Shown: positions 3,958 to 58,613 of the stretch, one piece after another
Numbering within the stretch: position 1 is the first letter of the stretch
How the letters are laid out: each line of letters starts with the position of its first letter
NCBI GenBank assembly: GCA_963920575.1
Contig: OY986965.1
Location: 6,961,134 to 7,025,133, forward strand
DNA: 64,000 nt
Origin: Narthecium ossifragum
Taxonomy: Eukaryota > Streptophyta > Magnoliopsida > Dioscoreales > Nartheciaceae
Direction of reading: 5' to 3'
Notes under the pieces: generated by a model
The model's input: only the letters and a program-made list of their open reading frames with translations
Database searches by the model: none
What the model was told of the DNA's origin: nothing
Made by a program: the position numbers and the translations under genes

Positions 3958-5491
3958 TGATTATGCCCAAAAAGATATTACAACAGTCACAACAATATAG
4001 CCTAAGAGGGCGGTCGTATCCACAAAGAGACAGTGGCTAGGATTACACAATTATGAGAGGATAAAAGTAAAATAGTAAAAAATCGATTATGTTTGAACCA
4101 AAAACAAGCAAAGGTTGGATGTTTTTAGAGAAGTTTCTTAAAGATTAATGTGGCATGGCATTGGAGATCTCTCACTTGAACTCGAGTATTTCTCTCACCC
4201 TCTATCCTGTTAGATACACAATTGGTGGATTCATATCCCAATCTCGCCAGTCTGAATATATTGAACTACAAATCATAGCGAGCAACAATAATAACTCTCA
4301 TGGATCATTCTCCCTTTATGAATCATGCAACTATCACATTGTTCAATTAGATTCAAAGACAACGATATATTTCAGCGATAACGCATCAAAGATATTAAAC
4401 CCTAAGACGATGATATGCTTAAACAATAACGCAACAGAAAATCTGATTAACAAAGGAACAACAAATTAAACCATGCCCAAGAACATCACTGATTATATAT
4501 GAGAAGAATCAAATCCCAACTCAGGCACATTCAAAAGATCTAAAACAAATGGGAAAATAGATCCATACGAGAGTTGTATCAACAATAAAATCAAAACAGG
4601 ATTTCAGATGAGGAGAAAAACTCTTATTCAAGCTTGATCACCCCTCCGCCTTGCCAAAATGATCTACTCATCCATGGATGATGAAGAAATCTCCAAAAGG
4701 TCTCCAAGAAGTCTTCCAAAAGTCCCCAAAAAGCCTCATTTGAATAACCCTAAGTTTCCTATTTATAGGCTCCAAAGGTCTTCAGCTCGGATTAGATTTG
4801 CACCCTTGATTTTGCTTAACTGCTATAAAATGATCGATCATTTAGGGATGATGATCGATCATTTTATCCCGTAGAACTGTTATGCCCCAAGGATGATTGA
4901 TCATTTTAAAGAAGATGATCGATCATTTGTATCGTTGATTTTCTCAATCTTCTCAGCTGTGAAGATGATCGATCGTTTCAAAGAAAATGATCGATCCGGT
5001 TAAACATGGTTCTCTATCATCTCTGACTGCATAAAATGATCAATCATTACAGGGGATGAAGATCGATCATTTGTCCTATGTATTTTCTCTTTTGCCATTC
5101 AGACTGTACCATTGGTACTAAAAATGCCGTAACTTCATCTAGGAAACTCGGAATCATGAATTGTAAAATTTTATAGAAACTAGACTTCAAGAGCGTTCCA
5201 ACCATATGTGACACATCATCTGATTCTTCATGAGCATGTACAGTTTAATCTTTCAAGTTGACCCATGTAATCTTTTCAGCTTCTTTTAGCTCCAATTTTC
5301 TGCATTATTCAAACAACTATGTGAAGTAACATATAAATATAAAACTGGTAATAAAGATGTTGATTAAGGATAATAATCTAGCAATTGAGATTGTTATAAG
5401 ACTGTTCAGAGTGCACTTTCATGCACTTATCAACGAACCTAACGCGTCTAGCAACATGGTACTAATCCCGGGTACGTACAATTTTTGAGCA
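3958..5491 (-). mobile_element. Solo LTR, Athila-like, antisense
   Basis: A 1534-bp LTR, TG...CA on the minus strand, flanked by ACGCA (3953-3957) and ACACA (5492-5496), a 4/5 target duplication. It sits exactly at the LTR/PBS junction of element C. Segments around 5090-5260 match the LTRs of element A (for example GACTTCAAGAGCGTTCC against GACTTCCAGAGCTTTCC at 24966). It has a minus-strand TATA box at 4759-4768 and six GATCGATC boxes (4832-5068), all flanked T...A or close to it. No internal region remains, so it is the product of LTR-LTR recombination. Confidence 0.75.
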
Positions 5492-5536
5492 ACACATTTT
5501 TTGGTTACCACAGCAGGAGACCAAAAATACCAGCTA

Positions 5537-7729
5537 TGTGAGGACCCGTTCCTCAAACCTGGCTCGACTGTGTTTGTCGAGGGTCGTTTCACACTCGCGC
5601 TGTGCACACAAGACCTTGGGATGATGTCTTTGTTTGATTAGAACCCTTAGGTGTGACCTGGATCGAAGATCTGGGTTCGGGCATGAGTGTTTGCCCATTT
5701 GCCACTTTTCAGTATGAGAAGATCGATCTTTTAGGGATAGAGGATTGATCTCCTTGTGCATGGAAAGTCTTCGCCTTGTCACGAGATCCATCTTCATGGG
5801 GGGTGAAGATCGATTTCCCTGGTTGTGACTGGTCGTATAAGTAGGACCTGTCTCTTTCCTTTGGATTTCTTTTGGAAATCCTTGGACGGGCTCAAATTAG
5901 GTGGCTTGGGGAGGATCGTTTGGACGATCCAAAGCTTGTTGAGATGGATTTGGAGCCTTCCATTTGTTCTAGGTAGGGATCTCTACCCAGATCTTAAGAT
6001 TTGACAGTTTAGGGTTTGTTTTGTTCTCTTTAGCTTAGATCTTTGTGTTTAGCTGTTGGTTTTCTATTTTCTTGGTGTTTTTGGACTCCCCTAGTCCTAC
6101 GCTTTTCGATTCCTGAGTTTTGTGAAGTTTAGTTTGGTATTTTGTGAGTTTTTCGGCGTTTTCTCCGATGGGTTTCCGGCGAGGCATAAGAAGGATCGAT
6201 CTTCTTGAGAAGAAGATCGATCTCTCTTGTGATCTCACGCCTAGCCTGTGAAGGATTGATCTTAATGTGTATGAATATCGGTCTCTTGCTTGACTAGGGC
6301 GGTGTTGTGCTGGCCTGAGGAAGATCGATCTTCATTGGAGGTGAAGGTCGATCCTTTCCTTGGCAGTGGACCTGTGTGAAAAAGATCGATCTTCATTGGA
6401 GATGAAGATCGATTTTCATTGGAGGTGAAGATCGATCTCCTTGTGTAGTAAGCTGATTGGTTTGGTTTTCATTGGTTTTGATTTCAAATCAACTCAGTTT
6501 TCTTTTATGTCCTTCCTATTGTTAGAATTAGGACATCATGATGTTTTAATCGTAATTTCACGATTTTCTTTCGAGTTTTACGATGATTTGTGTTCCGGAT
6601 CGTTTTACCGACTTTTGTGGATTTTAATCGGTTTTTCGATAAGCATGTGATAGTTGTAGTTGCGTTTATTTATTATGCTTTATTTAGTTGTAACTTGTGA
6701 TAATTAGATCCTTATTGCTTTGTGGTTGAACCAAGGGGGTAAGGTCCCTTGGGATGTATAGATAATGTAACTTATTATTTGTTGATGTGCCATATAGAGA
6801 CAAATAAGTCAGATGCTTGCATAGATGCATGCATTTGATTGCATTAGGTGCATTCTAGGTTAGGACGTGGGTGATGGGTTGATCGTCGATCCAAGGCTCT
6901 CGGGTCTAGCTCTAGGGCCATAGTTGGATAGCCAGGTCTATGGCGAGATTGTTGTACTACTTGGTTTACCACATCATAGTTCTTGAGGTGTAGAGGTCGT
7001 GTTGTTCTGCCTTGCCAAGGTTAAAGTGTGGGTGTGCTTTACTTACCTGTTTTTGAGTTAGGGATGCACTCGAGGTGCTCTGAAATCCATGGTCACCTCG
7101 TTTACGTTTGGGGAGCGCTAAACCCGTGTGATCCCCGGCGTGGTTCGCGATTGAGGAGTGCCTACAGCCAGCGTGATCCCCGTCATGGGTGTATGGCGAT
7201 TGGGGAGAGTCCAGAGCCGGCGTGATCCCCATCATATTTTCATGCTTGTAGTTAGTTGCGCCTTTGGCTTGGCAAGGAGACGGTTCAGTTTCAGTTTCCC
7301 CTTCCTTGAGTGTGACGTAGAGTAGAACCCTACTGGGCTTTGCTACTCACTCCTACCGGGGCTGCGTTTGCAGGTGTAGACACCAGTGCTTTCGTAGCTC
7401 TCAGTAGATCAGCTTTTGGCGGCGCGTTGACTTCTGGAGGGCTTTGAGGTGATTAATGATCTGATCGTACAGTTTGACAATTTTGTATACAGTATCCCTT
7501 GAGCATCAGTTTATATGTATAATTTTCGTCTTTACGTAATTTTGATTTAAATCTGTACAACTTTGATGTTAATGGAATAGTATGTTTTTAGATTACAATT
7601 ATGCCATAAGAAGTCAAATGTTTAAATTATTGTGGTAATTGTTGTATCGCGCCAGATTGGAAGTGAATAGGTGTAGCTCCCTCCCCTCACATTCCGTGGT
7701 CGGGATTGGTGTATCCCGAGGTGGGGCAT
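5537..7729 (+). mobile_element. Tekay/Del-like solo LTR B (left part; ends at 14266-14269)
   Basis: Starts TGTGAGGACC, as do the other Tekay-like LTRs here when read in their own sense. It contains the shared segment around 7290-7380 (TAGAACCCTACTGGGCTTTG...) and is cut at 7729 by element A. The last bases of the LTR (GACA, 14266-14269) lie beyond the insertion. Flanks AGCTA (5532-5536) and ACCTA (14270-14274) give a 4/5 target duplication, so it was a solo LTR of about 2.2 kb inside element C. Dyad boxes lie at 5721-5728 and 6190-6440; a TATAAG candidate is at 5836. Confidence 0.75.
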
Positions 7730-9386
7730 TGATGAGACGTGAAAAATACACAAGTTAACCCCTTAATTTACCTTTATTAGTCTTCGAGCAAGGTATTTCT
7801 AATAATCTTCATGGTATTTCAGGTACAAGAGCCTTCAATAGAAGTTAGATCAACTTTGGAGCGTAAACGAGCCTATTCGAGTACATTTAGGTACATGGGT
7901 CAACTTCAAAGATTAAACTGTACCTTCTCAGGAAGAACCAGATAATGTACCATATATCATTGGAAAGGTCTGGAAGTCTAGTTTCAGAAGAATTTTACGG
8001 TTCATGATTCCGAGTTTCCTAGATGAAGTTATGGCATTTTTCGTACCAATGCGCAGAGCTGAATGGCAAAAGAGATAATATGCGAAAAAGAAGATCGATC
8101 CTCACTATGGGAAGGATCGATCCCTTTTGCACATTTTCCAGTGACAGGTTGCAACATTCTCTAGGATCGATCCTTATCTACTGAAGGATCGATCCTCATC
8201 GGGGCGTAGCCAGAACTCAAGAGGAGGATCGATCCTTTACCCTATAAGGATCGATCCTTTTGTGCCAGCCGAACAAAATCAATGGTCCAGATCTAATCCG
8301 AGTGGGGGATGCTTGGAGGCTATAAATAGACCCCTTTTGGGGGATTTTGGGGATTCCTTTGGACAAGAAAAGGCTAAGGAAAGGGGCAACCCCCTTGGGC
8401 AAGGAAGGGAGCTCTCATCCAAGAGGGAGGAGATTGATGAAGAAGAGGATCCATCTCTTCTCCATGGCTTCTCCATCAAAGATGAGTAGCTAATCTATTT
8501 ACCTAGTGGAATACCATGATGTTTTAGGTTTTTATTTGTAGTTTTCTTTGGATTTGGATATTGTAATCCTTATGAGATAAGATTGTATGGATTTTTTCTT
8601 CATTTCTATACCTTTGTAGTTGGATTCTAATGTTGGATGGATGCATCTTTTTATATGCATAAGCTAGAACCTTATGCCCAATAGGTGTTTGTTGATATTC
8701 CCCAATGAGTAGGTTGTGCTAGAACCATGACCACTTGTGTTGAAGGGAGTCTTGGCTCTAGGTTCGGGACTTGGTTGTGCTAGAACCACTCCAATCCACA
8801 TCTAACCTAGCATCTATCCTATCTTTTGTAGTGTATTGGATGCGATGTGCTAGAACCACCTCGATCCATTACCGTACTCCATACAACCCGATTCCTTGCG
8901 ACGAGATGATCCTAACCCGACTTCTGGTTGGCGATGATTGTAGCTAATCCCTCGATCGTCGACTTTCTAGCATACACCTAGTGCGACGGATAGTCTTTAA
9001 CTAGTTATTCGTTAGCGACGACCTTTGTTAGCCACAAGGTAGTCGATATTGTAGTGTCTCGATAGGATTGCGCATCTTGATTCATTAGAAAGCTATGATT
9101 GAGCCTAATCCGGATTGGGATTCCCTAGGACCTCTCTCTATCCATTGAGTCATTTACATGCTTTCTTAGTTTCCTTATCATAAAACCCAAAAACCATTTC
9201 TTTTATTATCCTTTATAGGAACACTTAGATTGAGGTAAGTAATTTAATTGTTTCCTTATGCATTCCCTGTGGATTCGACTCGGACTCACCGCTTGCTACC
9301 CCAAAAGGTAGTTAGTTAGGAGTTCGATTATAAATTTGTAATTTTGATCGGGCGCGTTAAGCCGCAACACTTTTCACGTCCCATCA
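7730..9386 (+). repeat. 5' LTR of element A
   Basis: TGATGAGACG ... CGTCCCATCA, 1657 bp. U3 holds six GATCGATC boxes (8093-8256), all but the first in the form GGATCGATCC. A TATA box TATAAATAGA lies at 8321-8330, 65 bp after the last box. Confidence 0.93.
8093..8256 (+). promoter_or_regulatory. Array of six GATCGATC dyad boxes upstream of TATA (5' LTR of A)
   Basis: Boxes at 8093, 8115, 8165, 8187, 8227 and 8249 (starts), arranged as three pairs 22 bp apart. The same array is at 12967-13130 in the 3' LTR, with TATA at 13195. Position directly upstream of the core promoter suggests regulatory binding sites; function is inferred. Confidence 0.6.
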
Positions 9387-9392
9387 AAATTT

Positions 9393-9410
9393 TGGCGCCG
9401 TTGCCGGGGA
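9393..9410 (+). other. Primer-binding site of element A (tRNA-Asp type)
   Basis: TGGCGCCGTTGCCGGGGA, 6 bp after the 5' LTR end. It complements the 3' end of plant tRNA-Asp. Confidence 0.85.
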
Positions 9411-9667
9411 GTGCTATCGGAAATGATTGAAGTGCTTTGCTTAATCTAGTGTTTCTTGTAAATATCTTCAATTTTAAATTTTGTTTCATATCTTTAAAAA
9501 AAAAGAGAGAGTTGTACTTACAATTGCTATATCTTTGTGTTGATAGGAGACGTCTCCGGCAAGACTTCGACGATCAAGATTGGCGACGGACGTCTCGTGC
9601 TTGGACCGGCCCATTGTAAAATATTTCTACCTTTTGGCTTGGTCTTTGTTTATGTGATTGTTTATAC

Positions 9668-11089
9668 ATGGCCGATAAGTATATGCCACCGGGTGCCACA
9701 TTGAACAATTATTTTCTACCACCTAATTATGCATCCGCTTATGTTAACGATACATATGGTTTCTCAAACTCGACATATGATTTGCATTCATACACCTATG
9801 ATGCGGATTTGAGTAATCATCCATACTCTTATTGGCAACCCCAAGGTCAATACCCTCTTGATGTTCAACCACAAAACATGAGCTCACCCGACCAATATTT
9901 TGCACTTAGCTCTACATCGCCCTATCTTTCTCAAACACAATACCCCCCACCCCAACATTGGTACGAGCCCTCCATTTCCTTTGAACCACAAGCACAAATA
10001 GATCCATCTTTAGATGAAAGGATCCTTAAAGCTCTAGAGACATTTGAAGCACAAAACCAACTTATACATTCCCACTCACAATCATTAGCCAATATAGAAG
10101 TCCAAATTGGACAACTAGCTTCCTTGATCGATTCATATTATGATGAGGTTGATGGTTGTGTGAGTGAGGTAGTGCCTTCTAATTTTAATGATGATGCGTG
10201 TAATACTTATCTTACCAATGTTAGTGATACATGCAAATGCAACTATGAGGTTCCTAATGAGGCTTCGCTCGTTCATGATAGTTTGAATGATGTTTTGCCG
10301 GTGCGTGATGATACTATTGACGATGTTTTGTCGGTATATGTTGATTTTGTGAATGAGCCAAAGCCTCCGATTTTTGTTAATCTTGACATTGATGAGAAGG
10401 ATGAATGCATGCATGATTTTATACCTCCTATTTGTCAGGATATTGTTTCTAATGTTTATCCATTCGTTGGTTGTGATGCATGCGAGGGGAAGATTGCTAA
10501 GAGAGTTTGTAATGATGATCTTATGCATGTTTGTGATAAGTTGGATGATGATTTACTTATGTTAGTTAAGTATGATACTTTTGATCATCATTGTGAGATC
10601 TCCTTACGGAGACCTCAAATTGAGTGTCAAGCTTTTCCATCATCCATGCTTGTTGAACATTGTGAGATGACGAACCTTGTTTTTCCATCTTTCTTAAGCC
10701 ATGCCGAATATGATTGTAATTTCATCAAAGACTCTTGCAAGACTTCCCGTCTTTCAAGCATCTTGTTTCCTAAGGACCTAATCTTTTTCTTTGATGAAGA
10801 TTGTTTGCATGGCTTTATTTCTCTTCGGCTCATGTATTATTTCACCTTGAATCATTGGCCACCAAAAGTTGACTTAAGGATGGCTCCATTTGATGAAGTA
10901 CATGGATCGAAGGCTAGTGAATGGCTAGTGCATAAACCTTCGTATAAATTGGACCCTCCTTTCTTCTTTGATAAATCATGTTTGCACGTCCTCTCTATTC
11001 TTCAATCCATGTATTTCTTTACGTGGAACCATCGGCCACCCAAATTCAATTGTGTTGTACATAGCATAACGTCGGGCAGAAGACGGTAA
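9668..11089 (+). CDS. Unrecognised 473-aa protein of non-autonomous element A
   Basis: The only long ORF of element A, starting MADKYMPPGATLNNYF. Residues 1-125 are rich in Tyr, Pro, Gln and Ser, without charge clusters. Residues about 128-160 hold a short predicted helix/coil with SLANIEVQIGQLASLI, reminiscent of the NLEVQIGQLA segment downstream of gag in many Ty3/gypsy elements. Residues about 165-300 are strongly acidic with scattered Cys. The C-terminal third contains two related blocks (FFFDEDCLHGFISLRLMYYF and FFFDKSCLHVLSILQSMYFF), each followed by NHWPPK/NHRPPK, an internal repeat. No zinc knuckle, protease or RT motifs. Conserved length and an open frame suggest it is, or recently was, expressed. 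Possibly a diverged gag-related accessory protein; function unknown. Confidence 0.7.
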   Translation: MADKYMPPGATLNNYFLPPNYASAYVNDTYGFSNSTYDLHSYTYDADLSNHPYSYWQPQGQYPLDVQPQNMSSPDQYFALSSTSPYLSQTQYPPPQHWYEPSISFEPQAQIDPSLDERILKALETFEAQNQLIHSHSQSLANIEVQIGQLASLIDSYYDEVDGCVSEVVPSNFNDDACNTYLTNVSDTCKCNYEVPNEASLVHDSLNDVLPVRDDTIDDVLSVYVDFVNEPKPPIFVNLDIDEKDECMHDFIPPICQDIVSNVYPFVGCDACEGKIAKRVCNDDLMHVCDKLDDDLLMLVKYDTFDHHCEISLRRPQIECQAFPSSMLVEHCEMTNLVFPSFLSHAEYDCNFIKDSCKTSRLSSILFPKDLIFFFDEDCLHGFISLRLMYYFTLNHWPPKVDLRMAPFDEVHGSKASEWLVHKPSYKLDPPFFFDKSCLHVLSILQSMYFFTWNHRPPKFNCVVHSITSGRRR

Positions 11090-11820
11090 AATGAGCGCTT
11101 GTTGGGAGGCAACCCAACATTTCCATGCTTCTTTGATTGTTTACTTGCTTTCTTGCATGCTTGATTGTTTTGTTTTTATTTTGGCATGTTTACTTAGTTC
11201 CAATGAGTGTTTTCATGCATCCGGTACGTGAGTTTTGGCCTTGGTATGTTTAGATCTTTGTACGATGTTAGGCCAAGACGATGATGTTTGTACTCTTGCT
11301 TTTATTGGACTAACCCTTTGTTATATTTCATATCTTCTTTGCATTTGGCCAAGGATACCTTCACATGGATGCTTTGAAGCACATCAGGTTATCTCTTCCC
11401 TTTTACCCTTCATATGTGCTTGAGGACAACCACATTTAAGTTGGGGGGTACATTTGCATGTTCGATAACCTGTATATCTTCACTTAATTTGTCAATTTAC
11501 TTGCATTGATGACTATGTGAAATTATTTTTGTCTTAGATGCTTGTCTTAGAGAACCATTGCACGGATTTTCTTGATTTTCATGTCTGATAAAAAGTTATG
11601 AATTATTGGATAAATGACATTTTTCTTTTACTTCAATTCGGCTTAACACATTGTAAGGCGAATTGAGCGGTCCAAATCACCTGCGCACATGCACTTGTAT
11701 GAAGGGTTGAGTGATTATCTTGAGTAGGGACCTTGATAGATTGAGATTCTGGAGCATATTCATGATCAATTGATGTGACTTATAGTTGTGTTAGAAAATT
11801 TTCGTTGACTAGCCTTAATT

Positions 11821-12152
11821 CGTAGCCTTCTAGGTTCGGGTAATTAAGTCTGTGGGGTGTTTTACACCTAATGCCCTAAAGCCGCATAGCTTGGGAGTCA
11901 TTGACCCAATACTCACTACATGGACCTAGTAGAAAGCTTAAGGGATCAATGCACTGCACAGTCACGCTAGTTGAATAAAAGCATAATGGTCATTAGTTGT
12001 GATTCGTGGCCTTCTAGGTTCGGGAGATTAAGCCTAAGGGGTGCTTTTACACCTAGTGCCCGAAAACCATCTGGTTTGGGAGTCACTGGCCTAAATCCTG
12101 TTACATGGACCTAGTAGAAAGCTTAAGGGATCATGACATTGCACAACCACAT
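11821..12152 (+). repeat. Imperfect direct repeat in the 3' untranslated part of element A
   Basis: About 150-bp units starting at 11821 and 12005 (CGTAGCCTTCTAGGTTCGGG and CGTGGCCTTCTAGGTTCGGG), both running to ATGGACCTAGTAGAAAGC and TTAAGGGATCA. Confidence 0.85.
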
Positions 12153-12590
12153 GCTCTATTACTCGAAAACAAATAAAGAGAGAAAAGAAAAGAAAAAAAT
12201 ATGATTAGTGTTGAATAAAACATGTCACATGTTCAATTGATTTGAATTGCTAAGGATGATTGATCTTGATTGACTCCCTACTTAGATGATTACAAGACCC
12301 CGATTACTTGGTTGCTCCTTTCACGACACGGGATTGTTCAATTAGATCTTAATTGTGTTAAGTGCTTTGAAGTCTTGGAACTATATCATTTATATTCTTA
12401 TTCATTTGCTTTTTACTTGGCCATGACTTGAGAGATAAAATTCGTGTATGGAAATCTACTTTGAGCATCGGAGTTGAGAATTGATTGCATATGAATCAAT
12501 GCATTATATTTTGACAAATTAGTGGTTTTGGTTGTTTGTTTGTTTGTGTGTTTCTTTCTTTTTGGCTTTGCTCGAGGACGAGCAAAGTGT

Positions 12591-12603
12591 AAGTTGGGGG
12601 GTG
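12591..12603 (+). other. Polypurine tract of element A
   Basis: AAGTTGGGGGGTG immediately before the 3' LTR; a second copy of TTAAGTTGGGGGG lies at about 11438. Duplicated polypurine-like tracts are common in Athila elements. Confidence 0.8.
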
Positions 12604-14260
12604 TGATGAGACGTAAAAAGTACACAAGTTAACCCCTTAATTTACCTTTATTAGTCTTCGAGCAAGGTATTTCTAATAATCTTCATGGTATTTCAGGTAC
12701 AAGAGCCTTCAATAGAAGTTAGATCAACTTTGGAGCGTAAACGAGCCTATTCGAGTACATTTAGGTACATGGGTCAACTTCAAAGATTAAACTGTACCTT
12801 CTCAGGAAGAACCAGATAATGTACCATATATCATTGGAAAGCTCTAGAAGTCTAGTTTCAGAAGAATTTTACGGTTCATGATTCCGAGTTTCCTAGATGA
12901 AGTTATGGCATTTTTCGTACCAATGCGCAGTGCTGAATGGCAAAAGAGATAATATGCAGAAAAGAAGATCGATCCACACTATGGGAAGGATCGATCCCTT
13001 TTGCACATTTTTCAGTGATAGAACGCAACATTCTCTAGGATCGATCCTTATCTACTGAAGGATCGATCCTCATCGGGGCGCAGCCAGAACTCAAGAGGAG
13101 GATCGATCCTTTACCCTATAAGGATCGATCCTTTTGTGCCAGCCGAGCAAAATCAATGGTCCAGATCTAATCCGAGTGGGGGATGCTTGGAGGCTATAAA
13201 TAGACCCCTTTTGGGGGATTTTGGGGATTCCTTTGGACAAGAAAAGGCTAAGGAAAGGGGCAACCCCCTTGGGCAAGGAAGGGAGCTCTCATCCAAGAGG
13301 GAGGAGATTGATGAAGAAGAGGATCCATCTCTTCTCCATGGCTTCTCCATCAAAGATGAGTAGCTAATCTATTTACCTAGTGGAATACCATGATATTTTA
13401 GGTTTTTATTTGTAGTTTTCTTTGGATTTGGATATTGTAATCCTTATGAGACAAGATTGTATGGATTTTTTCTTCATTTCTATACCTTTGTAGTTGGATT
13501 CTAATGTTGGATGGATGAATCTTTTGGTATGCATAAGTTAGAACCTTGTGCCCAATAGGTGTTTGTTGATATTCCCCAATGAGTAGGTTGTGCTAGAACC
13601 ATGGCCACTTGTGTTGAAGGGAGTCTTGCCTCTAGGTTAGGGACTTGGTTGTGCTAGAACCACTCCAATCCACATCTAACATAACATCTATCCTATCTTT
13701 TGTAGTGTATTGGATGCGATGTGCTAGAACCACCTCGATCCATTACCGTACTCCATACAACCCGATTCCTTGCGACGAGATGATCCTAACCCGACTTCTC
13801 GTTGACGATGATTGTAGCTAATCCCTCGATCGTCGACTTTCTAGCATACACCTAGTGCGACGAATAGACTTTAACTAGTTATTCGTTAGCGACGACTGTT
13901 GTTAGCCACAAGGTAGTCGATATTGTAGTGTCTCGATAGGATTGCGCATCTTGATTCATTAGAAAGTTATGATTGAGCCTAATCCGGATTGGGATTCCCT
14001 AGGACCTCTCTCTATCCATTGAGTCATTTACATGCTTTCTTAGTTTCCTTATCATAAAATCCAAAAACCATTTCTTTTATTATTCTTTATAGGAACACTT
14101 AGATTGAGGTAAGTAATTTAATTGTTTCCTTACGCATTCCCTGTGGATTCGACTCGGACTCACCGCTTGCTACCCCAAAAGGTAGTTAATTAGAAGTTCG
14201 ATTATAAATTTGTAATTTTGATCGGGCGCGTTAAGCCGCGACACTTTTCACGTCCCATCA
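12604..14260 (+). repeat. 3' LTR of element A
   Basis: Same length (1657 bp) and near-identical to 7730-9386, with scattered substitutions (for example GTGAAAAATAC against GTAAAAAGTAC at the start). Confidence 0.93.
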
Positions 14261-25948: not shown

Positions 25949-26185
25949 TCTATCTTTATATATGACTCAGATGTCACGTCATAAAACCATACTATATTTA
26001 TATATATATGGTGTGTTTTATCATATGGTTCTAAATGTATCTAATAAGTTATATTAAGTTGATGCAGATAGATCTGGTGATCGAGAATGAAGACACGTGG
26101 CAATAACGAGTTGTTGGGGGGTTAGTAGGGGGGGAGAGAGGGTGGTCCGGTTACATGCCATGTAACACGGGGGGGGGCCTACTAG
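25949..26185 (+). mobile_element. Possible plus-strand Helitron terminus
   Basis: Hairpin GTTACATG-C-CATGTAAC (26150-26166), then a G-run and CTAG at 26182-26185 followed by T. The 5' end near TCTTTATATATGACTC is only a guess. Confidence 0.45.
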
Positions 26186-29593: not shown

Positions 29594-29594
29594 T

Positions 29595-36479: not shown

Positions 36480-36509
36480 AAACAAAAAAAAAAAACTTTA
36501 TTTAAAGTC

Positions 36510-48929: not shown

Positions 48930-50088
48930 TGTTGATCCTAACCTTATTTTGATGATGCCAATATACATTAAATGATAAAATATATGTTTAATATTTATTA
49001 CCCCTTTAATTGGAGATATTAAATTCAATATTCAAGTTATTTTGTACTGACGGTCGATGCAATGATCGACCGTGGGAATGGGACGGTCGATCCATGGATC
49101 GACCGTGATGAATGCTTCATACTTGGCTATATGAGTATTGACGTGACGGTCGATCGGTGCATCGACCGTCGGAAGCGTTTTTCTTGATAGAGGCTCATAG
49201 ACGATGCGACGGTTATGTGGCGGTCGACCGTGGCGCATCAATAAAGAAAGTGGAGACGCGACGGTCGATCGGTGCATCGACCGTCCGAAGCGTTTTTCTT
49301 GACAGAGGCTCACGGACGATGCGACGGTCGATGCGGCGGTCGACCGTGGCGCATATATGAAGAAAAGTCAAGGAGCGGCGGTCGATCGGAGCATCGACCC
49401 TGGGAAGCGACTTTCTCAACAGAGGCTCACGGACGATGTGACGGTCGATCGTGAGAGCGACGGACGATGCGTGGATCGACCGTCGACCAAAGAGGCTGAG
49501 TTTTTTTATACGTGATGGACGATGGACGGATCGACCGCCAGGAGCGCGCAGAGTAAAAAAACTAGCCGTTGGAGAGTTGTAGGGAGCCGTTGGGGCTTCT
49601 TGTTGAGCAGGTTGAAGCCCATCTATAAGTAGTCTCTTCATGTAAACTTGCCACAACTTTAATCACTATTATTGAGATCATTTGAGCAAGTTCTAGGAAA
49701 GATTTCTACTTATTCTCCTTGAGCTAAAACCTTTGTAAATCTTCTTCAAGTGTGAAGAAGTATCTTGAGAGTTGTTCAACAGCAAGTGGCTGTGATTGTA
49801 AGGTCACAAAGCACCAGGAAGCTTAGAGGAAAAGCTTGTAAGGGATTTGCAAGTAGTGGAACCTCAAGGAGAGCCTTGAGAGAAGTGGTCGTAGACCAAG
49901 AGTTGGGTCGAACCACTATAAATCGGTGTCATCTCTCTTACCCTTCTTTCAGTTAATGCTTGCATACTATTATAGTTAAGGTTTATTTTGTTTACAAGCA
50001 TTCTAGCTGTTAGATTCTTTTCTATCTGAATTTTCCATCAATCTAGTTTTTCGAAAAGAGTCCAATTCACCCCCCTCTTGAACCTTCA
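48930..50088 (+). repeat. 5' LTR of the Sirevirus
   Basis: TGTTGATCC ... GAACCTTCA. 49045-49545 holds about a dozen dyad boxes of ACGGTCGATC/GATCGACCGT type, including a 24-bp perfect palindrome at 49083-49106. TATA candidate TATAAG at 49624. Confidence 0.93.
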
Positions 50089-50090
50089 AT

Positions 50091-50106
50091 TGGTATCAGA
50101 GCTAGG
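50091..50106 (+). other. Primer-binding site of the Sirevirus
   Basis: TGGTATCAGAGCTAGG, tRNA-Met type, 2 bp after the LTR. Confidence 0.9.
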
Positions 50107-50152
50107 TCTCTAATTTAGTGGTGTAACAACCCTTAGAGGATCCTATCTAGAT

Positions 50153-51901
50153 ATGGAAAACATAGAGGGACAAGCTATCAATAGGCCACCATACTTCAAT
50201 GGTTCAAACTACAATTATTGGAAAACAAAGATGGAAATCTTTGTTCAATCCATGGACTATGAGGTATGGTTGGTTATAGAGGATGGACCTTATGTCCCTA
50301 CCAAAATTGTTGATGGGAAAGATGTCCCAAAGACAAAGAGTGACTACACCCCAATTGACCTCAAAAACCTTCAAACTAATGCCAAGGCCAAAAGCTTTCT
50401 ATTTTGTGCCCTTAGCCCTAGTGAATTTAATAGGGTCTCCACATGCAAATCAGCAAAGGAGATATGGGATAAGCTTGAGGTTACATATGAGGGAACTAGC
50501 CAGGTTAAAGAGTCAAAGATAAGTATGCTAGTACATGAGTATGAATTATTTTGCATGAAGAATGATGAGACTATTAGTGAGATGTTTACACGTTTTAATA
50601 ATATATTAAATATGCTTGAATCTCTTGGAAGAATTTATGCAAATGATGAGATTGTGAGGAAGATCCTTAGGTGTCTACCTAAGTCGTGGGATCCCAAAGT
50701 GACAGCGATAGAAGAAGCCAAGGATCTATCCAAATTGTCACTAGATGAGCTCATGGGTTCCCTCATGACCTATGAGATGAACTTGAAGAGGAGCAACGAA
50801 GAGGGAGACAAAAAGAAGAAGACGGTTGCCTTCAAGTCATCTAGCAAAGACTCATCCGATTCAAGCGAAGGAGATGACGATGAGTAGTTGGCGATGATAT
50901 CAAGGAGAATACAAAAGATCTTCAAACGCCAAGGAGAAAAGAAATTCTTCAAGAAGAAATTCTTCAAAGGTGAAAGGTATAATCCTACTTCTTCTAACTC
51001 AAATGAAATCATATGTTATGAGTGTAGGAAGCCCGGACACATCAAGCTTGAATATCCTCAACTCAAGAAGCCTTCAAGGAAGGAGTTCAATAGTAGGAAT
51101 GCAATGGTGGCTACTTGGGGAGAAAGCGATGTGGAGACTTCATCCGATGAAGAAGAACAAGAGGTAGCCAACATATGCTTAATGGCACATGGAGATGAGG
51201 AAGAAGAGGAAAATGAGGTAGAGGATGAGCTTGCATTTGAAGAACTCTTTGATGCTTATCATGCTTTAGCAAATGATTTCAAATTCCTGAAAAAGAAATA
51301 CTATGCTAATTGTAAGGACTTGAAGAAAGTAGAAGAAGAAAAAGTAGATGCCATGCATAGGATTGAAGCTTTAGAAAAAGAAAACAAATGCATGCTAGAG
51401 AACAAGTCTTGTGACACAAATGACACACTTAAGGATGAACTCAAGGACACTCAATATGAGCTCACCATATTGAAGAATACAAATTATGATATGCAAAGAG
51501 AACTTATCTTCTTGAGGAAATCCAAGAGAGATCTCACTCTTGAGGTTAATGACCTAAAAATTACTATAGCTAAATTTGTGAAGAGTAGAGATAAGCTAGA
51601 TGTGATCCTTGATAACCAAAGGAACTCCTTAAACAAGGAAGGAATTGGCTACAACCCTAGGAAGATGAACAACCAAAAGAAGACTAACTTTGTTAAAGCT
51701 TCTTCTCATTCTCCTAAGGTAACACAAGCACCTACATGTCATTATTGTTGCAAAGTAGGTCACATTGCACCTAGTTGCTATCTCATGAAGAATGCTAATG
51801 CTAAGAAAATTTGGTCACCTAGATACTCATCTTCTTCTCTTATGCATAGTACTAATGCAAATGGACCCAAAAAGATTTGGGTACCAAAAATCAAGGTTTG
51901 A
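50153..51901 (+). CDS. Sirevirus gag (one in-frame stop)
   Basis: Capsid part 50153-50887 (MENIEGQAINRPPYFNGSN; copia gag helices through IEEAKDLSKLSLDELMGSL), ending at TAG 50885. The same frame continues 50888-51901 with two zinc knuckles (CYECRKPGHIKLEYP, where the last Cys is Tyr; CHYCCKVGHIAPSC, complete), flanking a long Glu/Lys coiled-coil region. The TAG may be a recent mutation or a programmed stop. The coiled coil between knuckles fits the extended gag of Sireviruses. Ends TGA at 51899. Confidence 0.85.
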
Positions 51902-51921
51902 TCTCCTATTTGTAGGATTGC

Positions 51922-53271
51922 ATGAGATCCAAGATCAAGACCAACACAAAGGCTAAAAGATGGTACATTGATAGTGGATGCTCAAAGCATATGACGGGTG
52001 AAAGGAGCATGTTCTCAACCCTTCAATCTAAAGATGGAGGAATGGTGACTTTTGGAGATAATGGAAAAGGAAAAATTATTGGCATTGACAATATTGGTAA
52101 AACCTCTTCCATTATTATTGAAAATGTTCTCTTAGTTGAAGGTTTGAAACATAACTTGCTTAGCATTAGTCAATTATGTGATAGAGGTAACAAAGTTATT
52201 TTTGAAGATTCAAAATGCTATGTTAAGAATGCTCTTAATGATAAAATCTTGCTAGTAGGTCATCGTGATGGTAATGTATACACATTTTATCTAAATGATC
52301 TTGTTTGCCATGATGATCTATGTCTAAGTGCTTTAAATGAAAATTCTTGGTTATGGCATAGAAGGCTTGGACATGCTCACATGGATTTAATATCCAAACT
52401 TTCTCGAAAAGACCTTGTTCTTGGACTTCCCAAGATCAAATTTGAGAAAGACAAGATTTGTGATGCATATCAAAGAGGAAAACAAGTAAAATCCTCTTTC
52501 AAGCCTAAAGATGTAGTTTCTACCACAAGAGCACTAGAACTCATTCATATGGATCTTTTTGGGCCTACTAAACCAACTAGTTTAGGTGGTAGCTCATATG
52601 GATTTGTTTTAGTAGATGACTACACTAGATTCACATGGGTGATTTTCCTTGCACACAAAGATGAAGTCTTTGAGGAATTCACCAACTTTTGTAGAAGAGT
52701 CCAAAATGAGAAAGGTATTCTCATTACATGCATTAGAAGTGATAATGGAGGAGAATTCAAGAATTCCCTTCTAGAAAAGTTTTGTAATGACAACGGGATT
52801 TCACATAACTTCTCTTCACCTAGAACCCCTCAACAAAATGGTGTTGTGGAAAGGAAAAATAGAACCCTACAAGACATGGCTAGAACTTTATTATGTGAAA
52901 ATAATCTTCCTAAGTACTTTTGGGCCGAAGCAATCAATACCTCTTGCCATGTGATAAATAGAGTAACCTTGAGACCCATTTTGAAGAAAACCCCTTATGA
53001 GCTTTGGAAAGGAAGAATTCCAAATATTGGGTACTTTAGAGCTTTTGGTTGCAAATGTTTTATCTTGAACAATGGCAATGATACTCTTGGAAAATTTGAT
53101 GCTAGATCCGATGAAGGAGTCTTTCTTGGATATTCGGGAAGAAGTAAAAGTTATAGAGTCTTCAATAAAAGGACTTTGGTGGTTGAAGAATCAATGCATG
53201 TGACATTTGATAAAATGATTTTAATTCCTAATAGAATTGATAATGGTATAATCAAAAGACTTATTGGATGA
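51922..53271 (+). CDS. Sirevirus protease and integrase
   Basis: Different frame from gag, 20 bp after its stop. Protease WYIDSGCSKHMTG near residue 15. GAG-pre-integrase LWHRRLGHAHMDLISKLS. The zinc finger reads CDAYQRGKQ where CDAC is usual, so one ligand is lost. DDE core: IHMDLFGPTK, IRSDNGGEF, and the Glu in QQNGVVERKNRTL. Ends RLIG at a TGA next to a frameshift at about 53250; the +1 frame continues the protein. Probably inactive as it stands. Confidence 0.88.
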   Translation: MRSKIKTNTKAKRWYIDSGCSKHMTGERSMFSTLQSKDGGMVTFGDNGKGKIIGIDNIGKTSSIIIENVLLVEGLKHNLLSISQLCDRGNKVIFEDSKCYVKNALNDKILLVGHRDGNVYTFYLNDLVCHDDLCLSALNENSWLWHRRLGHAHMDLISKLSRKDLVLGLPKIKFEKDKICDAYQRGKQVKSSFKPKDVVSTTRALELIHMDLFGPTKPTSLGGSSYGFVLVDDYTRFTWVIFLAHKDEVFEEFTNFCRRVQNEKGILITCIRSDNGGEFKNSLLEKFCNDNGISHNFSSPRTPQQNGVVERKNRTLQDMARTLLCENNLPKYFWAEAINTSCHVINRVTLRPILKKTPYELWKGRIPNIGYFRAFGCKCFILNNGNDTLGKFDARSDEGVFLGYSGRSKSYRVFNKRTLVVEESMHVTFDKMILIPNRIDNGIIKRLIG

Positions 53272-53392
53272 AACCCAAAATGATGTTGAAGAATTGAATG
53301 TTAGATTTGAGGAATCCCTTGAGATTATACCTAGTGATCAACATCATGAGTTGCCAAAGGATTAGAAGTATGCATCTTCGCACCCAAAGGAA

Positions 53393-55009
53393 TTGATAAT
53401 TGGTGAACCATCAAGAGGAATCCAAACTAGATCTTCTTTGAATACTTGTGCAAATCTAGCTTTCCTATCTCAAATTGAGCCTAAAACGATAGAGGAAGCA
53501 CTAGAGGATGATCATTGGATCCTAGCAATGCAAGAAGAATTGAATCAATTTGAAAGAAATGAAGTTTGGAATTTGGTACCTAGACCTCATGATCATCCCG
53601 TTATAGGTACTAAATGGGTGTTTAGAAACAAAATGGATGAATCGGGAACAATAACAAGGAATAAAGCTAGACTAGTTGCAAAAGGTTTCAATCAAGAAGA
53701 AGGAATTGATTTTGATGAGACTTTTGCACCGGTAGCTAGACTTGAGGCAATAAGACTACTTCTAGCTTTTGCATCTTACAAAGATTTCAAATTATATCAA
53801 ATGGATGTTAAGAGTGCCTTCTTGAATGGTTTACTAAAAGAAGAAGTCTATGTTGAGCAACCCCCCGGTTTTGAAGACTATAAATTGAGAGATCATGTAT
53901 TCAAACTCACTAAAGCCTTATATGGATTAAAACAAGCTTCTAGAGCTTGGTATGAAAGGGTTAGCAAATTCTTGATGGATAATGATTTTTGTAGAGGAAA
54001 AATTGATACTACATTGTTTACCAAATCAAAAGGCAAAGATTTGCTCTTGGTTCAAATTTATGTTGATGACATTATTTTTGGTTCTACAAATGATAAACTA
54101 TATGAAGAATTTGCCACATGTATGCAAAGTGAGTTTGAGATGAGTTTAATGGGTGAACTAAATTACTTTCTTGGTTTACAAATCATGCAAACTCGAGGAG
54201 GGATCTTTATTAATCAAGCTAAATACACTAGAGACCTACTCAAGAAATATGATTTTGTAGAATTCAAAATTTATAGAACCCCCATGTGTACAACACTAAA
54301 GCTAGACAAGGATGAAGATGGGAAACCCGTTGAACAAACACTTTATAGAGGGATGATTGGTTCTTTACTCTATTTGACCGCTAGTAGACCGGACATCATG
54401 TTTAGTGTTTGCCTTTGTGCTAGATATCAATCTTGTCCTAAGGAATCTCATTTGGTTGCGGTCAAGAGGATCTTTAGATATCTAATAGGAACCCAAAATT
54501 ATGGTTTGTGGTATCCTAGAAGATCATCTTTTGATCTAATTGGCTACTCCGATGAGGACTTTGCCGGATGTAGACTTGATAGAAAAAGCACAAGTGGTAC
54601 ATGTCACTTTCTTGGTCATGCACTTGTTTCTTGGTTCTCCAAGAAGCAAAATTCAGTTGCTTTATCCACCGCAGAAGCGGAATATATCGCGGCGGGTAGT
54701 TGTTGTGCACAATTGCTTTGGATGAAAATGCAATTGGAAGATTATGACATACATATAGGCAAAATGCCCATTAGATGTGACAACACTAGTGGCATAAACT
54801 TATCTAAAAATCCCATCTTGCATTCTAGAACAAAGCACATAGAAATTAGACATCATTTCCTTCGTGATCATGCACAAAAAGGAGATATTGCACTTGAGTT
54901 TGTTAGCACCGAACATCAAATTGCAAATATTCTAACTAAACCCTTAAGTGAAGACAGAATTACTTATCTACTAAGGGAGCTTGGGATATCCAATGGATGT
55001 CCAAAATAA
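53393..55009 (+). CDS. Sirevirus reverse transcriptase and RNase H
   Basis: Starts after a TAG at about 53363, in the gag frame. RT motifs: [37 protein letters not shown], catalytic YVDDIIFGS. RNase [11 protein letters not shown] (DAD is usual), [36 protein letters not shown]. Open for 538 codons, close to full length for this region. It is the best preserved polymerase in the window. Confidence 0.92.
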
Positions 55010-55216
55010 AGGAGCTAAAAGGAAAAGGTATGGTCACCTCTTTAACTGCTTTTCATACCATATTCTACTTGAATGCTAAATTTTGGTAAATTAAGTCAAT
55101 ATCATGATTAATGAGTGATTTTTGTCTCATAATATTTAGTTACACGTGCTTACAAAGATTTGTGATGTTTTGATTTATAAATAATTTTAAATTGAATTTC
55201 AAAACTCACTTTCTGG

Positions 55217-55484
55217 GGATGACGGTCGATCCAGCCTTCTTGACGGTCGACCGTGCGTACCTTCGCACTGGACGGTCGACCGCCAACCTCCTCGGATCGA
55301 CCGTGGGATGTAACTTTTAAACCCATTGTGTGCCACGGTCAACCGCCAACCTTGTTGGATCAACCGTGCGACAAAATGTGTGTGACGGTCGACCGCCAAG
55401 TCTTCGGATCGACCGTGCGACGCTTTTTTTTACACACAATGCTCGCGACGGTCGACCGCCAAGTTCCTACGGTCGACCGCCACG
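55217..55484 (+). promoter_or_regulatory. Internal dyad-box array ahead of the envelope-like ORF
   Basis: Repeated ACGGTCGACCG/GGATCGACCGT boxes (for example at 55221, 55261, 55384 and 55471), like those of the LTR. The last full box ends at 55478, 63 bp before TATAAC at 55541, and the ORF starts at 55675. Confidence 0.6.
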
Positions 55485-55674
55485 GACCGTGTGACAACTT
55501 AAGTCGGGGCTTTTTCGTCTTTTCCACTCAAATCTCCCTTTATAACTCCCGATCAACCCCTTCACTCCTCACTGGTTCGACCATGCCCTAGTCCTCAAAA
55601 CGTCCGCAGCTCCTCCTCCTCTCTCTCTCAAGCCGATCTCCTTCCCACTCAAAACCCTAACCAGCTGGTGGATA

Positions 55675-56904
55675 ATGGTTCGCACCAAGAATGTTGGTCC
55701 TCCTTCACTTGAGGAACCAAGTGCAGCTGGGAAACGGAAGAAGGCAGTCTCAAAGAAGCCATTCGGAGGAAAGAAAGCCAAAGGAGCTCAAGGAGGTTCT
55801 TCATCCAATCCTCAACCTACCCCCTCCTACGACGAGTACTTCTTCCTAGACATGGAGAGATATAAAACCTGGCCTGATTTTAAGGACAAGTTTGTAGTCT
55901 CGGGTAGAGCTTTACAACTGCCTTTAAACAAAAAACACGTAGTAGAGCAATACTTCACTGATATGGGATGGAACAAATTCTTAGAAATGCCTCAACACAT
56001 CTATCCCGAAATGATTAGGTATTTTTATTGCAATATGAGTGAGGATATAGATGATGAGGGATATGTAGCTATTACTAGCTATGTTTATGGTAATGAAATC
56101 AAAATTACCATAGAATGGTTGAATGAGCTACTTAATGCACCTAATTCAGGAGAGTGCATTTACTTTACTTCCCACGAGGATTTAAATAGAGCTGATCATG
56201 ATAAACTAGGGAGAAAGGCTATCCTCAAGCCTCTACAAGTTGAGAAAATCCCTATAGAACTAAATAGCCTCAACCAACAATTTAGGGAGCTTGCCCACTT
56301 CCTAGGAACAAACCTATTTCCTAAGCTTGGCCATCATGATAATTTGAAACCTATCCATGCCTATGTTCTTTCTTGCATGGTTAGGAGAAAACCTCTTAAC
56401 CTAGGCTATCTAATTATCAAGGAAATGCTAAATCTAAATGCTCGGCAATCACTTCCTTTTGGGGGGCTCATAACAAACATTTTCAAAGCCCTCACCCTAA
56501 ACCTAGCCGATGATGAACGCAAACCCCTTTCTCAACCCTTCAACAAATCCACCTACAAGAGGATGAAGGCCGCCAAACGAGCTTTAGGCCTTGGTTGGCC
56601 TCAGCTCAGTGCCGATGAGGATGATGAGCCTCAAGAAGAGCATGGAGAAGAAAATATAGGGGGAGAGCCTTTGCTTGAAGAGCATCAAGGAGAAGCATCT
56701 AGTAGCCGAGTTCGTCGCACCACGGCACAAAGGCTTGATGATCTCGAAGCTAGAATGGGAAGAATGGAAGTGAGTCTCGATGACATCAAGACTTCCCAAG
56801 CAAACATCACCGGAGATCAAGTCAAGATGTCTCAGCAACTTGATGAGATTTTCACCTACATCAAGAATGAATTTCCACCTAGCACTCCTTCAGCAAGCCT
56901 CTAG
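55675..56904 (+). CDS. Sirevirus envelope-like ORF
   Basis: 409 codons, start MVRTKNVGPPSLEEPSAAGK (lysine-rich, possible nuclear localisation signal KKPFGGKKAK). The central domain (YFFLDMERYKTWPDF, then GYVAITSYVYGNEIKITIEW, LKPIHAYVLSCMVRRKPLNL) matches the putative plant transposon protein family found as the third ORF of Sireviruses. The acidic linker is followed by a C-terminal coiled coil (RLDDLEARMGRMEVSLDDIK). No clear transmembrane segment or signal peptide is visible, so true envelope function is doubtful. The frame is intact. Confidence 0.85.
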   Translation: MVRTKNVGPPSLEEPSAAGKRKKAVSKKPFGGKKAKGAQGGSSSNPQPTPSYDEYFFLDMERYKTWPDFKDKFVVSGRALQLPLNKKHVVEQYFTDMGWNKFLEMPQHIYPEMIRYFYCNMSEDIDDEGYVAITSYVYGNEIKITIEWLNELLNAPNSGECIYFTSHEDLNRADHDKLGRKAILKPLQVEKIPIELNSLNQQFRELAHFLGTNLFPKLGHHDNLKPIHAYVLSCMVRRKPLNLGYLIIKEMLNLNARQSLPFGGLITNIFKALTLNLADDERKPLSQPFNKSTYKRMKAAKRALGLGWPQLSADEDDEPQEEHGEENIGGEPLLEEHQGEASSSRVRRTTAQRLDDLEARMGRMEVSLDDIKTSQANITGDQVKMSQQLDEIFTYIKNEFPPSTPSASL

Positions 56905-57429
56905 TGATTGATCCTAATTCTCCACCCTCCTTACCTCTTTTTGATAATGCCAAAGGGGGAGAAAAGTGTGATGAGTGTGATGAATGTGAAAGCCCTACAT
57001 TTCTTACTTTTGCCCTACATTTCTTACTTTTGTATTTTGAAAAACTTTGTTTTGAATTGAAAGTCTTGTAAGTTCAAAGTTTTCCAAATGATTTTGAATG
57101 GAAATATTGTATGGAAATGTTGGGATCCTTTGAATGAAATGCAAATGTGTTTGGATATTGCCTTGATGTATTAATACTGTCATAATTCAATATGAAATCA
57201 CTTCATGAAAGCATAAATGTTATTATTGAAAAGAAGTGAACATGCTAAAATCCAAACCATTATGTCAACATATCTTGAATGGAACTTTTAATATCATTTT
57301 AAAGATATATGACTTGTGTGCATCTTGAAAACTGACTTTAGAACATATTTTTTTTGAATGAAAAGGATGCATTGATTAAGGGGGAGTCAAGATATTTTAT
57401 CATCACATTTAAAAGGATTGTCATCATCA

Positions 57430-57442
57430 AAAAGGGGGAGAT
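57430..57442 (+). other. Polypurine tract of the Sirevirus
   Basis: AAAAAGGGGGAGA directly before the 3' LTR. Similar purine runs at 56954 (CCAAAGGGGGAGAAAAG) and 57379 (AAGGGGGAG) fit the multiple polypurine tracts of Sireviruses. Confidence 0.85.
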
Positions 57443-58613
57443 TGTTGATCCTAACCTTGTTTTGATGATGCCAATATACATTAAATGATAAAATATATGT
57501 TTAATATTTATTACCCCTTTAATTGGAGATATTAAATTAAATATTCAAGTTATTTTGTACTGACGGTCGATGTAAGGATCGACCGTGGGAATGGGACGGT
57601 CGATCCATGGATCGACCGTGATGAATGGTTCTTACTTGACTATATGAGTATTGACGCGACGGTCGATCGGTGCATCGACCGTCGGAAGCGTTTTTCTTGA
57701 CAGAGGCTCACGGACGATGCGACGGTCGATGTGGCGGTCGACCGTGGCGCATCAATGAAGAAAGTGGAGACGCGACGGTCGATCGATGCATCGACCGTCC
57801 GAAGCGTTTTTCTTGACAGAGGCTCACGGACGATGCGACGGTCGATGCGGCGGTCGACCGTGGCGCATATATGAAGAAAAGTCAAGGAGCGACGGTCGAT
57901 CGGAGCATCGACCCTGGGAAGCGACTTTCTCAACAGAGGCTCACGGACGATGTGACGGTCGATGTCACGGTCGACCGTGAGAGCGACGGACGATGCGTGG
58001 ATCGACCATCGACCAAAGAGGCTGAGTTTTTTATACGTGACGGACGATGGACGGATCGACCGCCAGGAGCGCGCAGAGTAAAAAAACTAGCCGTTGGAGA
58101 GTTGTAGGGAGCCGTTGGGGCTTCTTGTTGAGCTGGTTGAAGCCCATCTATAAGTAGTCTCTTCATGTAAACTTGCCACAACTTTAATCACTATTATTGA
58201 GATCATTTGAGCAAGTTCTAGGAAAGATTTCTACTTATTCTCCTTGAGCTAAAACCTTTGTAAATCTTCTTCAAGTGTGAAGAAGTATCTTGAGAGTTGT
58301 TCAACAGCAAGTGGCTGTGATTGTAAGGTCACCAAGCACCAGGAAGCTTGGAGGAAAAGCTTGTAAGGGATTTGCAAGTAGTGGAACCTCAAGGAGAGCC
58401 TTGAGAGAAGTGGACGTAGACCAAGAGTTGGGTCGAACCACTATAAATCGGTGTCATCTCTCTTACCCTTCTTTCAGTTAATGCTTGCATGCTATTATAG
58501 TTAAGGTTTATTTTGTTTACAAGCATTCTAGCTGTTAGATTCTTTTCTATCTGAATTTTCCATCAATCTATTTTTTCGAAAAGAGTCCAATTCACCCCCC
58601 TCTTGGACCTTCA
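57443..58613 (+). repeat. 3' LTR of the Sirevirus
   Basis: 1171 bp against 1159 bp for the 5' LTR. The main difference is an extra box near 57963. TATA candidate at 58149. Confidence 0.93.

Follow-up and report, generated by a model that had tools for sequence, protein, structure and literature searches.

Palindromic box arrays in Athila-like and Tekay-like Ty3 LTRs of Narthecium ossifragum as putative helically phased protein-binding sites

The stretch of Narthecium ossifragum DNA analysed here (the window: 64,000 nucleotides, assembly GCA_963920575.1, contig OY986965.1, positions 6,961,134 to 7,025,133 of the forward strand) contains long terminal repeat (LTR) retrotransposons, and its Athila-like and Tekay-like Ty3 LTRs carry arrays of a palindromic 8-bp word, GATCGATC, referred to below as the box. 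We counted 65 boxes in the window, where shuffled sequence gave 0.94 on average (maximum 4 in 100 shuffles), and the box ranked first among all window 8-mers when scored as (count minus expectation)/root expectation, so that the word singled out by an initial annotation is strongly non-random. Within the window 64 of the 65 boxes were located in or directly beside LTR segments, again in line with that annotation; the exception is a lone box at 61583, inside an open reading frame (ORF) with an integrase zinc-binding domain. The Athila-like LTRs, which we take to be of this lineage from the type of their primer-binding site (PBS), were listed with their arrays as follows, the flank class of a box being given by its bases at positions -1 and +1.

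7730..14260, plus strand: Athila-like element with LTRs 7730-9386 and 12604-14260, PBS TGGCGCCGTTGCCGGGG at 9393 and target site duplication (TSD) GGCAT
8093..8256, plus strand: array of the 5' LTR of this element, 6 boxes, 5/6 of class G.C
8320..8329, plus strand: TATA box CTATAAATAG, 65 bp past the last box of the 5' LTR array
12967..13130, plus strand: six-box array of this element's 3' LTR, with TATA at 13195
24696..24850, minus strand: array of the Athila-like LTR 23563-25221, 6 boxes, 5/6 of class A.T, TATA at 24631
4832..5068, minus strand: array of an Athila-like LTR fragment spanning 4748-5269, 6 intact and 2 CpG-decayed boxes, class T.A in 3/6 boxes, TATA at 4767
48736..48917, minus strand: Athila-like stretch, 7 boxes, all of class G.C (TTGGATCGATCCAA type), TATA at 48670, 66 bp off

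Six or seven intact boxes per Athila-like array were thus counted (6, 6, 6, 6 and 7), as first described. The two LTRs of the element at 7730-14260 are 97.6% identical and only about 3.2 kb apart (9387-12603), with one ORF of 473 amino acids between them. No Pfam match was obtained for this ORF, and a protein search gave no homologue at E 1e-3; the element is probably non-autonomous.

The Tekay-like label was given because matches to SH3_Tf2-1 (E 3e-12) and, weakly, to Chromo (E 0.025, under its cut-off) precede the LTR starting at 59690, whose start aligns with the solo LTRs; for carriers beyond the window, the lineage was assigned by array clustering and not by proteins. These LTRs also bear boxes, as had been claimed.

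5721..5816, plus strand: first box group of the Tekay-like LTR starting at 5537, with one intact GATCGATC, one decayed box and one ATCGAT, preceding a TATA-like GTATAAGTAGG at 5835
6194..6437, plus strand: second box group of the same LTR, downstream of the TATA-like GTATAAGTAGG
26873..29288, minus strand: Tekay-like solo LTR, TSD GATCT, with a ladder of boxes at 28982-29053 (22, 21, 21 bp) and a box at 28238
33206..35370, minus strand: Tekay-like solo LTR, TSD CTGTA, with arrays at 35066-35161 and 34279-34508 (mostly class A.T)
39653..39957, minus strand: array of the Tekay-like LTR starting at 38584, 8 boxes in a 22/50-bp rhythm, mixed flank classes
40521..40550, minus strand: box pair of the same LTR, class G.C
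59902..59996, plus strand: boxes beside the Tekay-like LTR fragment starting at 59690, two intact and one CpG-decayed

Of the LTRs at 5537, 38584 and 59690 only the start is defined, and the far end of the stretch near 48736 is likewise undelimited. In the Tat-like LTR 42781-43842 neither intact nor CpG-decayed boxes were found (0 and 0), and its boxlessness therefore stands as originally reported.

The arrays are abundant far beyond the window. Box pairs of the form GATCGATC-N10-16-GATCGATC were counted at 77,693 places in the 379,400,290-bp assembly, against 17 for the reversed control pattern, and pairs with N53-55 (steps of 61-63 bp) at 20,786 places against 8, a figure that speaks for enrichment and not for phase; for repeats, such genome-wide pattern counts are lower bounds. 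A systematic 200-kb sample, composed of twenty 10-kb stretches at round coordinates on C1-C6 and pooled without a split into LTR and non-LTR DNA, contained 84 boxes against 9 copies of the reversed 8-mer, and 71 of the 84 stood in arrays of at least two. To this sample were added twenty stretches around box pairs from the first 2.07 Mb of C1, together with locus L121, while the second LTR of the window's Athila-like element was excluded as a duplicate. The full set comprised 55 arrays with 314 boxes, or 332 boxes when single ones are included, and all results refer to this one genome and a few LTR families. Since the added stretches were picked for pairs 18-24 bp apart, the set is biased to close gaps; long gaps and flanks were not selected for. 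The arrays hold 2-13 intact boxes, with numbers varying between relatives. Boxes with one mismatch were tallied in the arrays of the window and of the 200-kb sample; the two commonest forms (GATTGATC/GATCAATC, n=10, and AATCGATC/GATCGATT, n=7; all others together 9) are both C-to-T changes, which is consistent with methylated, silenced copies.

The spacing of the boxes is regular. Among the 332 boxes, 143 gaps of 19-23 bp were found, 88 of them exactly 22 bp, and the unpicked data show such gaps too: they account for 28 of 57 in the systematic sample (gaps of at most 150 bp considered) and for 24 of 44 in the window (at most 100 bp). The longer gaps, for which no selection was made, cluster near 30, 41, 49-50, 61, 71-72 and 83 bp. 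To control for kinship, the arrays were clustered after masking of their intact boxes, and every distinct gap between 25 and 110 bp was used once per cluster, boxes decayed by C-to-T change being included. The best period of these gaps (n=50, 9 clusters) was 10.0 bp with R 0.437, a value matched by 2 of 5000 jittered nulls, and 10.0 bp was likewise the strongest period in the range 5-20 bp when all 119 gaps of 25-110 bp were taken. The same rungs of this ladder are occupied in different sequence clusters.

The palindrome extends into the flanks of the box. Watson-Crick symmetry was found in 65% of the 332 boxes at ±1 (33% expected) and in 66% at ±2 (35% expected), and it fades outward, with fractions of 0.35 against 0.28 expected at ±3 and 0.42 against 0.31 at ±4. 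The symmetric ±1 classes were A.T (90 boxes), G.C (87), T.A (23) and C.G (17), and members of one array tend to agree in class. Two boxes of one array have the same ±1 pair with a probability of 0.49 compared with 0.18 after shuffling (Athila-type arrays 0.53 vs 0.21, others 0.46 vs 0.24), and 13 of the 22 Athila-type arrays have one class in at least two thirds of their boxes. Homologous LTRs of different class were then compared column by column, the identity of the cores being imposed by the box-matching method. In eight such comparisons the ±1 position differs in 65 of 74 columns (10/11, 9/11, 11/12, 8/10, 6/6, 9/10, 7/8 and 5/6), whereas two comparisons within a class gave 2/20 (1/10 and 1/10). 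Between classes ±2 differs in only 6 of 74 columns, and the columns outside boxes and flanks in 564 of 1656 (27-42% per comparison), with the spacers still alignable. Changes from A.T to T.A are transversions, and changes of this kind are therefore not the product of methylation-driven transitions. Both the spacing ladder and the concerted change of flanks go beyond the first description of the locus.

The initial annotation had placed the nearest box of Athila-like LTRs 64-66 bp from the TATA box, and this is borne out: the five window cases measure 65, 65, 65, 65 and 66 bp, although the arrays at 8256 and 13130 belong to the paired LTRs of a single element, so that four elements are represented and not five. 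For the array at 48736 the first octamer encountered lies 18 bp away, and TATAAATAG, 66 bp away, was taken as the TATA box. In the full set a TATA-like octamer flanks 23 of the 55 arrays at a distance of no more than 160 bp; 21 of these have one at 64-66 bp, and the remaining two at 87 and 89 bp. A further claim, that this distance is fixed across unrelated retrotransposons, did not hold and has to be narrowed to the Athila-like LTRs. None of the 28 Tekay-like arrays (clusters 1, 2, 3 and 7; the first box group of the 5537 LTR, with its one intact box, is not among them) has a listed TATA octamer within 160 bp, and four further arrays are likewise without one in that range; in the Sirevirus described below, the final LTR motif is about 87 bp from a TATA-like TATAAGTAG. 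When 22 segments with a box 55-75 bp ahead of TATAA[A/G]TA were compared, they could be aligned, and most have a AGATCTAATCCGAG-like element. The Athila-like cases thus have a common, diverged core promoter (AGATCTAATCCGAG-like element and TATAAATA), and because it is common to them they are not independent. Judged from these alignments, the spacing of 64-66 bp would have been retained by descent and looks like the mark of one deep promoter lineage.

A Sirevirus in the same window carries palindromes of another kind.

48930..58613, plus strand: Sirevirus, TSD AGTTT
49050..49537, plus strand: repeated motifs of its 5' LTR, 17 CGGTCGA half-motifs on either strand
55222..55479, plus strand: repeated motifs before ORF 55675-56904, 13 half-motifs (count region 55009-55675)
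57563..58062, plus strand: repeated motifs of its 3' LTR, 19 half-motifs

Its coding part has an RVT_2 match at E 1e-75 and copia-type gag and rve domains, and ORF 55675-56904, which is ENV-like by position, carries PF20167. A PBS TATCAGAGC was located at 50094 and AGGGGGAG tracts at 56658, 56954, 57379 and 57433, the last beside the 3' LTR; such a PBS and multiple AGGGGGAG tracts are among the Sirevirus features given in the published description (Bousios et al. 2010, PMC2829016). With a copia reverse transcriptase, this PBS, these tracts, and CGG-CCG palindromes in the LTRs and before ENV, the element has those of the published Sirevirus traits that were looked at, and its motifs are of an already known type. 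No relative of its reverse transcriptase was found in viral contigs. The word GGTCGATC occurs 24 times in the window, 20 times inside this element, so the earlier statement that Sirevirus LTRs bear boxes stands as far as the word is concerned; the palindrome, however, is a different one, namely the CGG-CCG repeated motif (RM) of Bousios et al. (2010). Its repeat unit consists of a stem of 9 bp and a loop of 6 nt, and its symmetric form GGTCGACC is without GATC. Outside arrays GGTCGACC is 14-fold enriched (23 vs 1.6; 200-kb sample and window), with 10 of the 23 copies coming from this same Sirevirus. The element is flanked (48900-48930 and 58610-58640) by the Athila-like array on one side and by what reads by eye as chromovirus-like integrase sequence on the other, and its insertion seems to have struck an older junction.

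Other sequences lie around the Tekay-like LTRs. Endogenous caulimovirid remains at 32003-38750, with coat domain, movement protein, protease and reverse transcriptase, enclose the Tekay-like solo LTR with TSD CTGTA, and related inverted pieces are present at 29289-30071. A perfect 22-bp palindrome, GACGGCCACCGCGGTGGCCGTC, is located at 35006-35027 and 40460-40481, about 60 bp or less from box pairs in two Tekay-like LTRs. A perfect 46-bp palindrome with an AT-repeat centre (26183-26228) is perhaps a small inverted-repeat element. Away from these LTRs, ORF 170-952 encodes an alcohol dehydrogenase; of its 7998 protein matches the 120 listed share 63-82% identity with it, and those bearing names come from a wide range of angiosperms, with monocots among the best.

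The Sirevirus motifs are the closest known counterpart of the box arrays. According to the passages of PMC2829016 on these motifs, the RM boxes are also high-copy palindromes, situated in the upper LTR half shortly upstream of the TATA box, with one version per element. Clustering upstream of TATA is found in Athila-like arrays (21/23) and not in the 28 Tekay-like ones. For the trait of at least eight copies per element, the GATCGATC arrays give 2-13 intact boxes (6-7 in the Athila-like arrays of the window), whole elements elsewhere being undelimited. The CGG-CCG signature is absent, as the core is GATCGATC and C.G stands at ±1 in 17 of 332 boxes, and the carriers are not Sireviruses: in the window they have an Athila-type PBS or adjoin SH3_Tf2-1/Chromo remnants. 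The RM boxes are called Sirevirus-specific in PMC2829016 by comparison with classic Ty1/copia elements, whereas the GATCGATC arrays sit in Ty3 LTRs and add a helical ladder and concerted flanks, features not met in the RM description given there. The Ty3 arrays would resemble the Sirevirus motifs in their working; they differ from them in carrier and core. In the same source the Vitis motif CGGTCGACCG matches the Sirevirus of our window, and the Tnd-1 motif ACAATCGATTGT, described there as an exception to the CGG-CCG signature, is likewise centred on ATCGAT.

Among the matches listed in the open-licence literature, no paper on GATCGATC arrays in LTRs was found; a Hevea paper containing the word was set aside since the word is a library junction there. 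Rfam gave no match at gathering score. A search of viral contigs for box pairs returned at least 80 loci, with one pair place in each listed locus. The QuinCent motif of RLG_Quinta is also an LTR segment thought to be common to gypsy and copia elements, but it is described in the relevant part of PMC11302176 as a 162-bp motif tied to nucleosome placement, with no palindrome array.

Taken together, these facts suggest an enhancer-like, cis-regulatory role for the GATCGATC arrays in Athila-like and Tekay-like Ty3 LTRs, the arrays being made of helically phased putative sites for a dimeric protein. This reading, drawn from DNA sequence, we consider somewhat more likely than not. Each palindromic box would probably be bound by a dimeric DNA-binding protein, and with boxes set in steps of about one helix turn, the bound proteins would share one face of the DNA. 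In Athila-like LTRs the protein-bearing arrays would adjoin the core promoter. The protein presumably activates and does not repress, the boxes may become methylated once a copy is silenced, and the flank classes would mirror differing binding preferences. Proteins lined up on one helix face would account for the ladder as well as for the constant distance to TATA, and equally for the symmetry of the flanking pairs and their concerted change. A common host factor, which had been proposed earlier, is accordingly retained in part: for the Ty3 elements the preferred reading is a factor acting in trans, and one factor serving both superfamilies, and so all three lineages, finds little support, because the Sirevirus boxes are a different palindrome without GATC and the 28 Tekay-like arrays have no TATA octamer in range. 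A more specific extension, possible but doubtful, is that the ±1 pair acts as a specificity address, with many LTR subfamilies keeping to a single symmetric class in most of their boxes, and that subfamilies switch class in concert as the contact of the reader protein differs there, the reader being either a paralogue of the host or a protein that the elements provide. If this were true, retrotransposon families would evolve private, helically phased promoter codes inside one genome.

Several observations weigh against the protein reading. An earlier, smaller set, when grouped in other ways, yielded best periods of 9.6, 9.9, 10.2 and 10.5 bp, and seven gaps of 44-46 bp together with four of 53-57 bp, all from Tekay-like arrays, make the ladder less sharp. 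The genome count for 61-63 bp (20,786) is a measure of enrichment and no proof of phase. The change between classes is not restricted to ±1, since ±3 to ±5 differ in 117 of 222 columns, above the rest, and the compared LTRs are few, related, drawn from two clusters and non-independent. Flank pairs are mixed in the Tekay-like arrays at 39653 of the window and at L146, L164, L157 and L142; symmetry is weaker in Tekay-like and unassigned arrays (0.61 vs 0.44 expected); and in the C.G-class LTRs L121 (1501-1910) and L141 (6996-7390) about half of the boxes are asymmetric G..G. Finally, the arrays fold very stably as RNA (z-scores -8.4, -9.4 and -10.2).

The last point leads to the main rival, in itself unlikely, by which the boxes were selected as RNA or single-strand structure in the 3'-terminal U3 RNA, serving dimerisation, packaging or, as has been suggested for Sirevirus palindromes of maize, hairpin-derived small RNAs, and the concerted flanks follow from the need of boxes to pair mutually. 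The Sirevirus unit, with its stem and loop, fits this idea, as does the surplus of small RNAs mapping to Sirevirus palindrome clusters in maize, reported in the pertinent section of PMC10760457. Maize copia elements (Bousios 2016, cited in PMC10760457 and PMC5311732) are also noted there for palindrome arrays in the regulatory portion of the LTR, with strong predicted RNA structure; for maize Ty3 elements, however, that section of PMC10760457 reports no obvious structure peak. In 24 box pairs of the window, for which pairing within and between boxes is not cleanly separable, flanks that face each other across the gap match as complements at ±1 in 0.88, as mutual pairing would have it, but the outer flanks in just 0.58, below the 0.73 within a box. 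Pairing as RNA would explain the symmetry and perhaps the concert, but it does not account for the 10-bp rhythm of the longer gaps, for the 64-66 bp between box and TATA, or for the constancy of the GATCGATC core while the adjoining pair varies. Small-RNA production from the arrays, by analogy with maize, may accompany reading by a protein.

It is quite unlikely that the reader is a plant GATA protein bound to the two GATC words of each box, in the manner of the GATC enhancer of Voichek et al. (2024, PMC11525189), even though GATA proteins are the obvious candidates because, in the portion of that paper concerned, plant GATC words are their sites. That motif also has a GATC core and an effect growing with copy number; its six strongest 6-mers include AGATCG, which is half of an A.T-class box, and gatcCA, which is contained in the TGGATCGATCCA box; lone GATC, with boxes masked, is 1.76-fold enriched in array regions compared with 1.16-fold elsewhere; and AGATCT occurs within the core-promoter element of several LTRs. 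Yet the motif is given in that portion as single YVGATCBR words downstream of gene start sites, and flank classes and a spacing ladder are absent from that portion. YVGATCBR requires C/T at -2, and by this position and its +2 counterpart alone 231 of the 332 boxes miss on both halves, leaving 101 that could match at least one. The GATC effect is described as minimal upstream of the start site, where the Athila-like arrays sit ahead of their TATA boxes; in one Tekay-like LTR a group of boxes is found on the downstream side of a TATA-like sequence. Very unlikely, too, is an absence of any function, with tandem duplication and template switching in reverse transcription building the arrays and homogenisation giving a common flank and regular spacing. 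Some arrays do appear duplicated (units of about 71 bp in L146 and of 41 bp in L151), and box number varies among related arrays; such processes, however, should move the spacers too, contrary to the 65/74 changed columns at ±1 beside 6/74 at ±2 in alignable spacers, and they do not account for the recurrence of the same rungs in different clusters. Highly improbable is the transfer of a promoter module by recombination among Athila-like, Tekay-like and Sirevirus elements, which had been the other explanation put forward at first. It has a precedent in einkorn, where a gypsy element is proposed to have acquired an LTR motif from a different retrotransposon, and where a sequence homologous to it was found in a copia LTR (PMC11302176, in its account of that motif). 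Recent transfer was not seen here: comparison of Athila-type with other array interiors (boxes masked) gave 4 cross matches, all to L163 at 448, an array of an Athila-like cluster, and the motif of the Sirevirus has another sequence and another arrangement of its unit. The observation as first described is thus confirmed in part, and its interpretation is supported in part.

Within Ty1/copia, high-copy palindrome arrays had been described as peculiar to Sireviruses, and here Ty3 LTRs are filled with them so densely that box pairs have a mean spacing of about 5 kb across the 379-Mb genome of this plant. The ladder and the concerted flanks are evolutionary evidence for reading by a protein, and this is directly testable. 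They would also provide a natural experiment in which a repeated regulatory site shifts its specificity in many boxes at once, and the arrays, by tens of thousands, are potential regulatory DNA for neighbouring host genes.

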